Assembly: GCA_015056915.1 (NCBI GenBank)
Contig: SVFK01000001.1
Span: forward strand, 219,219-283,218
DNA: 64,000 nt
Origin: Lachnospiraceae bacterium
GTDB lineage: Bacteria; Bacillota; Clostridia; Lachnospirales; Lachnospiraceae
Direction of reading: 5' to 3'
The notes beneath the pieces are model-generated. The model was given only the letters and a program-made list of their open reading frames with translations. It did not search any database and was not told where the DNA came from. Position 1 is the first letter of the stretch. Each line of letters starts with the position of its first letter. Shown piece by piece: positions 30,390 to 59,661 of the stretch. The translations under genes were made by a program, and so were the position numbers.

Positions 30390-32135
30390 ATGGCCTTTGA
30401 TGGCGTTACCATAGCAAATGTAGTACAAGAAATGAATCAGGAATTAATCGGCGGCAGACTTTACAAAATTGCCCAACCGGAAAATGATGAGCTGTTGCTC
30501 ACCATTAAAACCTCCAACGGACAGAAGCGTCTGTTTATCTCCGCCGGTGCTTCTCTGCCTTTGATTTATCTGACTAACACAAATAAGCCCAGCCCCATGA
30601 CTGCACCCAATTTCTGTATGCTGTTGCGCAAGCACCTGCAGAACGGTCGCATCGTGTCCATTACACAGCCCGGCTTGGAACGTATTATCCATATTGAAGT
30701 GGAACATTTGGATGAAATGGGGGATTTATGCCGCAAAACCCTTGTGGTAGAAATCATGGGCAAGCACAGCAATATTATTTTCTGCAACGAGGAGCATATG
30801 ATTATCGACAGTATCAAGCACGTATCTGCCGCAGTCAGCAGTGTCCGTGAGGTGTTGCCGGGCAAGCCCTACTTCGTTGCACAGACACAGGATAAGCTAG
30901 ATGCCCTGACCGTGGAATATCCGGCTTTCCGCGAGGCACTCTCCTCCAAACCACAGCCCACCTTCAAGGCTTTGTACGGAAGCTTTGAAGGCATCTCACC
31001 GATTCTGGCTCAGGAGCTATGCTTTCAGGCCGGTATTGATGGTGAGCAGCCCACCGCAGCCTTGGACGAAGCTGCCTACCAAAAATTGTTTACAGCATTT
31101 AAAACAATGGTACAGTCCATTCAAGCCGGAGATTTTACCCCTAATATTGCATACACCGGCACCCAGCCTGTGGATTTTGCCGCCATACCACTGACCATGT
31201 ACACTACCGGTACAGACCACACGGTGGCATATGATTCTATGAGCCAGCTCTTGGAAAGCTACTATGCAGAGAAAAATACAATCACACGCATCCGACAGAA
31301 ATCCTCAGACCTTCGTCGTATCGTGCAGACAGCATTGGAGCGTAATGTGAAAAAATATGACTTGCAGCTACGCCAGATGAAGGATACCGAAAAGCGTGAG
31401 ACCTATCGCATATACGGAGAATTGCTGAACACTTACGGTTACAGCGCACAGCCCGGCGATAAATCTCTGGAGGCAATCAATTATTACACCAACGAGCCTG
31501 TTACGATTCCTTTGGACCCAACATTGACTGCTTTGGAAAATGCCAAAAAATATTTTGACAAATATAACAAAATGAAGCGCACTTATGAAGCACTGTCTGA
31601 ATTAACCAAAGAAGTCAAAGAGGAAATTGACCATTTGGAGACTATTAGTGCAGCGCTTGATATTGCCCTACAGGAAGAGGATTTGGTAGAAATTAAAGAA
31701 GAGCTGACCGAAAGTGGTTATATCCGCAGAAAAGGCGGCAGCAAAAAGACCAAAATAACCAGTAAACCCTTCCACTATATCAGCAGTGACGGATTCCATA
31801 TTTATGTGGGCAAGAACAATTATCAAAACGAGGAGCTGACCTTTAAATTTGCCACCGGGAATGACTGGTGGTTCCATGCAAAAGGGATACCCGGTTCCCA
31901 TGTCATTGTCAAAACAGAGGGTGACGGGGAAATGCCGGACAGAACCTTCGAAGAGGCCGGACGACTTGCCGCCTATTATTCTAAAGGACGCGGTCAGGAA
32001 AAGGTAGAAATAGATTACATCCAGAAAAAGCATGTAAAAAAACCCGGCGGCGCAAAGCCCGGGTTTGTAGTATACTATACCAATTATTCTCTAATGATTG
32101 ACAGCAATATCGAAGGAATAGAGCAGGTGAATTGA
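30390..32135 (+). CDS. rqcH: NFACT-family ribosome quality-control protein (RqcH/FbpA-like)
   Basis: MAFDGVTIANVVQEMNQELIGGRLYKIAQPENDELLLTI...GSHVIVK...AAYYSKGR...VDYIQKKHVKKPGGAKPGFVVYYTNYS type motifs. Confidence 0.95.
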   Translation: MAFDGVTIANVVQEMNQELIGGRLYKIAQPENDELLLTIKTSNGQKRLFISAGASLPLIYLTNTNKPSPMTAPNFCMLLRKHLQNGRIVSITQPGLERIIHIEVEHLDEMGDLCRKTLVVEIMGKHSNIIFCNEEHMIIDSIKHVSAAVSSVREVLPGKPYFVAQTQDKLDALTVEYPAFREALSSKPQPTFKALYGSFEGISPILAQELCFQAGIDGEQPTAALDEAAYQKLFTAFKTMVQSIQAGDFTPNIAYTGTQPVDFAAIPLTMYTTGTDHTVAYDSMSQLLESYYAEKNTITRIRQKSSDLRRIVQTALERNVKKYDLQLRQMKDTEKRETYRIYGELLNTYGYSAQPGDKSLEAINYYTNEPVTIPLDPTLTALENAKKYFDKYNKMKRTYEALSELTKEVKEEIDHLETISAALDIALQEEDLVEIKEELTESGYIRRKGGSKKTKITSKPFHYISSDGFHIYVGKNNYQNEELTFKFATGNDWWFHAKGIPGSHVIVKTEGDGEMPDRTFEEAGRLAAYYSKGRGQEKVEIDYIQKKHVKKPGGAKPGFVVYYTNYSLMIDSNIEGIEQVN

Positions 32136-32144
32136 CACCTGCTC
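32121..32144 (+). terminator. Hairpin overlapping the rqcH stop codon
   Basis: GAGCAGGTG-AATTGA-CACCTGCTC followed by TATTTG; stem overlaps the last codons. Confidence 0.6.
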
Positions 32145-32159
32145 TATTTGCTACTTATT

Positions 32160-32413
32160 GTCAGAATGTCGGGGATAAAAAGTCCACCGCCCACAATGGT
32201 CAGGCTGGTTTGTCATCTACAGGAGCCTTAGTTGCCCTTAGGATTGGCAAAGATGCGTTGTTGCCCACAATTCGTCTGTTTGAGCGTAGCGAGTTTTCGA
32301 ATTGTGGGTAACGTACTTAGCAGATTTGACAATTCTTAGTGCAACTTGGCTCCGCAGCCGCAAACCGGTCTGACCATTGTGGGCGGTGGACTTTTTGTCC
32401 TCGTTATTCTGAC
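32160..32413 (+). other. Long structured intergenic element, copy A
   Basis: Positions 32160-32212 pair with 32361-32413 (53 positions, one T-T mismatch, five G-U). Conserved core 32208-32365 shared with copy B. Confidence 0.9.
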
Positions 32414-32426
32414 ATTGTCACCAATT

Positions 32427-39295: not shown

Positions 39296-39457
39296 GCGTT
39301 TATCTCTTCGATAAGGTTTACTTCGCGGTCTGCTCGAGCCGTGAGACCTCGATTCCGCTTCGCTTCATCTCGGTCACGGGCTTCGCCCTATAAACGAAGA
39401 TAAACAGGGATGAAAATTTAAGCGAGCTTAATTTTCATCCCTGTTTATCTTCGTTTG
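39296..39457. repeat. Compound inverted repeat with a 27-31 bp near-perfect hairpin
   Basis: 39392-39418 AAACGAAGATAAACAGGGATGAAAATT is the exact reverse complement of 39430-39456; secondary hairpin CCGTGAGACC (39339-39348)/GGTCACGG (39372-39379). Confidence 0.85.
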
Positions 39458-39479
39458 CACGGCTCATGCCTTGCGTGAA

Positions 39480-39552
39480 AGCTGCTGACGGGAATCGGAC
39501 CCGTGACCTCCGCACTACCAATGCGACGCTCTACCGACTGAGCCACAGCAGC
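39480..39552 (-). tRNA. tRNA-Thr (GGT)
   Basis: Reverse complement GCTGCTGTGGCTCAGTCGGTAGAGCGTCGCATTGGTAGTGCGGAGGTCACGGGTCCGATTCCCGTCAGCAGC; cloverleaf with anticodon loop TTGGTAG. Confidence 0.95.
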
Positions 39553-48682: not shown

Positions 48683-48960
48683 AAAAACGGATAAATCCAT
48701 CCTTAGAGACGAATTTATCCGCGGTTCCACTCTACTTAAAGACCTAGCGGTCTTTCTCTTAATACGTTTAACGCACGCCCACGTATCCGGATACTTGCCA
48801 CACAGATACCTTTCCCCGAATCAGCTCACGGATGCACTTCCTTTCTCCCTGTGCCGAAGCCGCTTTCAGCCTGTTGACAGCTTCTCTCTGATGCCTTCAG
48901 AAAAAGTACTCTTTCCGCTCATTGCCTTTTATCTATCTATTTATCAGAATATGCAAAAAC
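48683..48960 (-). promoter_or_regulatory. T-box leader (Cys specifier) upstream of cysE-cysS
   Basis: Minus strand AGAGTGGAACCGCG T-box (48733-48720), terminator GGATAAAT...ATTTATCCGTTTTTT (48720-48683), specifier-like GAAG-TGC-ATCC at 48836-48834. Confidence 0.92.
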
Positions 48961-59328: not shown

Positions 59329-59408
59329 CCATTTTCCCTCATAAGCAAGTTATCTTCAGCCTCCTTATCATAACACAAAACGAAAATCTGTGCCACTCAA
59401 TGTTATGC

Positions 59409-59642
59409 CGCCGGGGTTAAATTCCACCGCCTCTAGGGCAGGTATTGTTTGTCATCTACAGGAGCCTTAGTTGCTCTTAGGATTGACAAAGCTGCGTTGT
59501 TGCCCAAAATTCGTCTGTTTGAGTGTAGCGAGTTTTCGAATTTTGGGTAACGTACTTAGCAGATTTGACAATTCTTAGTGCAACTTGGCTCCGCAGCCGC
59601 AAACAATACCTGCCCTAGAGGCGGTGGAATTCGCCCCCGGCG
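59409..59642 (+). other. Long structured intergenic element, copy B
   Basis: 59420-59451 pairs perfectly with 59600-59631 (32 bp), plus outer CGCCGGGG/CCCCGGCG. Core 59447-59604 nearly identical to 32208-32365. Confidence 0.9.
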
Positions 59643-59661
59643 TCTTATTATCATCTTATCG

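Follow-up and report, generated by a model that had tools for sequence, protein, structure and literature searches.

A long hairpin between rqcH and murJ in a Lachnospiraceae genome is one copy of a dispersed inserted repeat, probably a mobile element, whose apical loop recurs in many bacterial phyla

The stretch of DNA analyzed here (the window) comprises 64,000 nucleotides of contig SVFK01000001.1, from the assembly GCA_015056915.1 of a Lachnospiraceae bacterium. The gap between its convergent genes rqcH and murJ harbors a hairpin element (copy A), and a second copy of the same element (copy B) adjoins an apparent minus-strand gene for superoxide dismutase. The features of both copies are as follows, the plus strand being the one that bears the conserved loop.

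32116..32149, plus: native intrinsic terminator of rqcH, outside the element and just upstream of it
32157..32163, no strand: putative 7-bp target-site duplication ATTGTCA, left side, overlapping the arm end
32160..32413, plus: hairpin element, copy A, supported by its fold z-score, by its genome copies and by an empty orthologous site
32160..32212, plus: 5' outer stem arm of copy A, variable from copy to copy, pairing with 32361-32413
32208..32365, plus: 158-nt core of copy A, sharing 87-96% identity with the other full-length copies
32276..32296, plus: apical loop motif of copy A, CTGTTTGAGCGTAGCGAGTTT, common to several phyla
32361..32413, plus: 3' outer stem arm of copy A
32414..32420, no strand: putative target-site duplication ATTGTCA, right side
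59404..59647, plus: copy B, with a core 96% identical and outer stems that are different yet complementary
59515..59535, plus: apical loop motif of copy B, with one mismatch

Two further structures were noted elsewhere in the window: an inverted repeat of 34 nt (39385-39463; 91%, 11 nt between the arms) that adjoins two near-identical tRNA genes at 39480 and 39611, and a T-box leader on the minus strand (48702-48931; 126 bits).

In a repeat search, the arms of copy A (32159-32212 and 32361-32414) were 89% Watson-Crick paired, in agreement with the 47 of 53 positions counted in an earlier sequence-only reading of this DNA, and the internal helices listed there are present in the predicted structure. 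The RNA fold reaches -163.2 kcal/mol, whereas shuffles average -78.1 (sd 4.6), which gives z -18.5; none of 200 shuffles matched this stability, so the folding check proposed in that reading came out in its favor. No listed open reading frame of 80 or more amino acids lies inside the hairpin, and Rfam 15 returned no family at gathering score for the element, either in the window or at 18 related loci; the claims that it encodes no plausible protein and belongs to no known RNA family were thus upheld. The full stem is not followed by the T-run of an intrinsic terminator on either strand, and rqcH has its own terminator upstream; the structure is, as that reading said, far larger than a terminator.

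The label "copy A" had implied further copies, and copy B is one of them. The host genome, a 2.2-Mb metagenome-assembled genome (MAG) that is 85% complete, contains 13 full copies plus several fragments or truncated forms, about 15 in all, with cores 93% identical between copies. Families about 76% identical were found in two other species of the host genus (G016 and G024), and the copy search detected none in the other sampled relatives, except in one species from a different family, which has a 26-base match to the loop. The orientation of the element with respect to neighboring genes is random apart from a scarcity of divergent positions, and copies occur in all gene orientations. One inverted duplication (L255) was discarded because it sits at a contig end. 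The element is a dispersed inserted repeat and not a single-locus RNA: the sequence-only reading was right about size, lack of coding capacity, absence from Rfam and multiple copies, and it missed that this is a transposed repeat instead of a locus-specific RNA gene.

Several signatures of insertion were found. In two related species (G022 and G010) the rqcH-murJ gap is short and lacks the element, at an identity to the window too low to place the exact junction; G022 resembles the window in having a terminator-like inverted repeat after rqcH, though without the element. Many copies share the ends GATGYYGGGG...CCCCRRCATC, which are diverged in some copies and are retained by truncated remnants. 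Several copies, copy A among them, are flanked by A/T-rich direct repeats of 7-8 bp, the kind of trace that transposition leaves, as in the following loci.

L010: ATGTTAT
L025: ATGTAAT
L033: ATTTTTAA
L036: ATTCTTAT
L299 and L301: ATAATAT
L308: TTCAAAA

The longest flanking repeat averages 5.2 within a copy and 4.1 across copies (permutation p 1e-4, and 4e-4 when repeats of 7 or longer are counted), and exactly adjacent 7-mers are perfect repeats in 5 of 15 copies compared with 1.9% of cross-pairs (permutation p 1e-5 for the mean, 9e-5 for exact repeats). These p-values carry some analyst freedom, as the ends of the element were placed manually on the basis of the palindrome in several copies, including copy A; the repeats are clear in about one third of the copies, and this evidence comes from one genus.

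The outer arms, of about 46 nt, are only 53% identical between copies, and each outer stem is almost fully Watson-Crick paired. In at least one copy, 30 of the 35 outer pairs have changed on both sides. Double-changed pair cells numbered 102 in the outer stems against a shuffle mean of 28, and 95.1% of cells were paired versus 71.5% in shuffles, a pairing that is lost when the register is slid. Few intermediates changed on one side only (G.U type) were seen, some 10 cells in the table of individual pairs. Two copies reveal how one arm can overwrite the other. In L013, 49 of 51 positions of the 3' inner arm agree with the reverse complement of the 5' arm of the same copy, where its siblings reach about 38 of 48. 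In L267, from another Lachnospiraceae genome (G080), the distal 5' arm resembles the reverse-complemented 3' arms of its siblings (up to 42 of 45 positions) more than their 5' arms (only about 33 of 43). Judged from the sequences, this overwriting is what template-switch (quasipalindrome) correction leaves behind, a process described as creating and maintaining perfect stems (PMC8794818). Such arm conversion, seen in these two copies, is probably part of the reason why the stems are kept paired, and template switching, which supplies a DNA-level cause for stem covariation, may lie behind most of the stem change. We also considered whether the outer arms could be "spacers" captured from elsewhere in the genome, an idea rejected after the good matches of the seven arms tested proved to be only their own partner arms and sister copies. 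The family offers a natural example of stem covariation that seems to arise, in part at least, from a process acting on DNA; this calls for caution in covariation-based RNA discovery because such repeats would resemble excellent structured RNA.

The apical loop reaches far beyond this genus. An exact scan of 84,980 genomes for CTGTTTGAGCGNAGCGAGTTT found at least 117 stretches, whereas about 0.5 would be expected by chance in 257 Gb (our own arithmetic, with 20 specified bases and both strands); as only exact loops were demanded, this count says nothing on the extent of loop variation. Among the matches listed, carriers belong to at least eight phyla or lineages (Bacteroidota, Pseudomonadota, Desulfobacterota, Bacillota, Aquificota, Nitrospirota, Patescibacteria and a Gastranaerophilales MAG), and a near-match in Ilyobacter possibly adds Fusobacteriota. 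Most sites form the apex of a long hairpin, with stems that are mutually unrelated. Thirty carrier genomes held 1-45 copies each, compared with 0-1 for a reversed-pattern control. The distribution is patchy: the loop, allowing one mismatch, occurs in 14 of 196 genomes of the host's order, and it is absent from 5,426 genomes of E. coli. The element core was found in no plasmid or phage; the loop is rare in plasmids (13 records, mostly non-mobilizable and some chromosome-sized) and gave weak matches at chance level only in phages. No gene recurs near the motif across phyla. In Arcicella rosea (L228-L247) most copies are units of about 240-290 bp with inverted repeats AAACATGAGTCATCCC, which enclose the loop hairpin and a likely T-rich pseudoknot and have no clear direct repeats. 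Together these observations suggest a widespread family of mobile hairpin repeats. That the same exact 20-base loop tips otherwise unrelated hairpins across many phyla implies a common recognizer, apparently one without a name in the literature searched, and the loop may explain spurious hypothetical proteins with LFERSEF or SLRSNS, which are its translations.

To compare the two strands, the loop was swapped for a neutral tetraloop and the motif strand and its complement were folded at 79 informative non-redundant loci. With 40-nt arms the motif strand folded better at 67 of 79 loci (p 2e-10), and with 15-nt arms the difference was not significant. On the motif strand, G.U exceeded A.C mismatches in 37 loci (the reverse in 12) and A.G exceeded C.T in 55 (the reverse in 9). 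The window's own family has a small, mixed difference, with the motif strand favored in 9 of 13 copies. Because the motif strand is the more stable in these folding models, a folded single strand, be it RNA or ssDNA, probably matters across the wide family. A T-rich hairpin follows the motif hairpin in 59 of 156 cases, some 20-80 nt 3' of the motif (L043, L049, L056, L108 and others, in Bacteroidota and Pseudomonadota). In many of the 59 its loop can pair with an upstream segment through covarying partners (CTTGAT/ATCAAG, CTTGAC/GTCAAG, CTTGAA/TTCAAG, GTCGCC/GGCGAC), a predicted arrangement that is likely an H-type pseudoknot and possibly a triple-helix one. Nothing alike was seen on reading the 3' flanks of the window's copies.

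A moving enzyme was sought in the host and its relatives. Two element ends spaced 1-4 kb from each other, as expected of an autonomous partner sharing its ends with a MITE, were found neither in the host genome nor in G016. No parent insertion sequence (IS) was found either, so that one of the refutations proposed in the sequence-only reading, an IS remnant with a known parent, gained no support. The element could instead be a palindrome of the REP/BIME kind mobilized by a RAYT-type (Y1, HUH) transposase, an explanation that we consider rather improbable. Like REPs, the element is palindromic, intergenic and multicopy, and long RAYT-like Y1 proteins, called by ORF length, were counted in 15 of the 28 genomes that carry the element and in 1 of the 18 that lack it (Fisher p 0.001), in a test that mixed phyla and sampling and ignored kinship. 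Against it, the 85% complete host MAG has no Y1_Tnp match, and of 20 RAYT loci retrieved just 1 has the motif nearby, at a distance of about 1 kb from the gene; on both grounds RAYT was rejected as an obligate partner. To our knowledge, HUH Y1 enzymes make no target-site duplications, whereas repeats of 7-8 bp are seen here; for this reason, and because RAYT genes are not beside the hairpins, the association stays a lead only.

Two other explanations assign the hairpin a role in transcripts. A functional structured RNA family, with a transcribed loop strand whose loop binds protein or RNA while the stem protects or presents it, and with spread by duplication or capture by mobile elements, would account for the better folding and the mismatch bias of the motif strand, for a loop invariant across phyla and for the likely T-rich pseudoknot with covarying partners in many Bacteroidota and Pseudomonadota loci. 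We find it unlikely, although it is the strongest of the alternatives, given that orientation to neighboring genes is random, that there is no conserved locus within the patchy distribution and that insertion signatures are present. A bidirectional terminator or an mRNA-stabilizing 3' hairpin is very improbable. The position of copy A between convergent genes and its extreme fold stability would suit such a function, as would three copies in Flammeovirga (L200) that sit on the gene strand between genes of an apparent urease operon; nevertheless, nearly all copies lack a T-run after the full stem, rqcH is already served by its own terminator, and copies occur in all gene orientations.

We therefore favor, with a probability of roughly 0.65, a non-coding and non-autonomous mobile element of about 240-250 bp, MITE- or REP-like, built as one long imperfect palindrome and moved in trans. 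The reading rests on the roughly 15 copies and remnants with defined ends, the empty orthologous gaps and the flanking direct repeats; on variable stems that stay paired, arm overwriting and random gene orientation; and on a multicopy loop that tips unrelated hairpins in many phyla, with the motif strand the stabler. It is weakened by the lack of an autonomous partner, a linked gene or a host Y1 enzyme in the searches above, by clear repeats in only about a third of the copies, and by a strand asymmetry that would also suit a functional RNA. Under the mobile-element reading, a trans-acting enzyme would excise or copy the element and insert it at A/T-rich sites, recognizing the folded form by sequence at the loop CTGTTTGAGCGNAGCGAGTTT and by structure at the stem. 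On the hairpin, template switching would rewrite one arm from the other, letting stems drift while staying paired, and copies would decay by internal deletion to short stem remnants. Effects on neighboring genes, such as protection of transcript 3' ends or partial termination, are likely secondary. More tentatively, the loop CTGTTTGAGCGNAGCGAGTTT could define a pan-bacterial class of mobile hairpins whose folded single strands (RNA or ssDNA) are recognized by trans-acting machinery, with freely varying stems re-paired by template switching and, in some phyla, an added 3' T-rich pseudoknot.

Among known systems, the element resembles MITEs in being short, non-coding, intergenic and multicopy, with inverted terminal sequences, flanking direct repeats (putative target-site duplications), empty orthologous sites and internal-deletion derivatives. 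It differs from them in lacking an identified parent IS and in being a single self-complementary hairpin whose stems are hypervariable yet paired and whose apical loop is common across phyla. With REP/BIME sequences and their RAYTs (GTAG and CGTC superfamilies; PMC3733652) it shares a patchy distribution of dispersed, multicopy intergenic palindromes over many taxa; however, it measures about 240 bp against 20-40 bp for a REP, is conserved at the loop and not at a foot tetranucleotide, has direct repeats and does not lie beside RAYT genes. A genome survey has described families of repeated intergenic stem-loops (PMC2267715), but these are named per species, and the loop sequence is absent from the text of that paper. 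The double substitutions and arm homogenization of L013 and L267 recall hairpins maintained by template switching (PMC8794818), which is a mutational mechanism and not an element family. Literature searches by loop DNA, encoded peptide and topic, in a coverage that mostly excludes subscription journals, found no description of the element. MITEs and REPs are known kinds of repeat; what appears new relative to the literature searched is a loop conserved across phyla and carried on freely changing stems.
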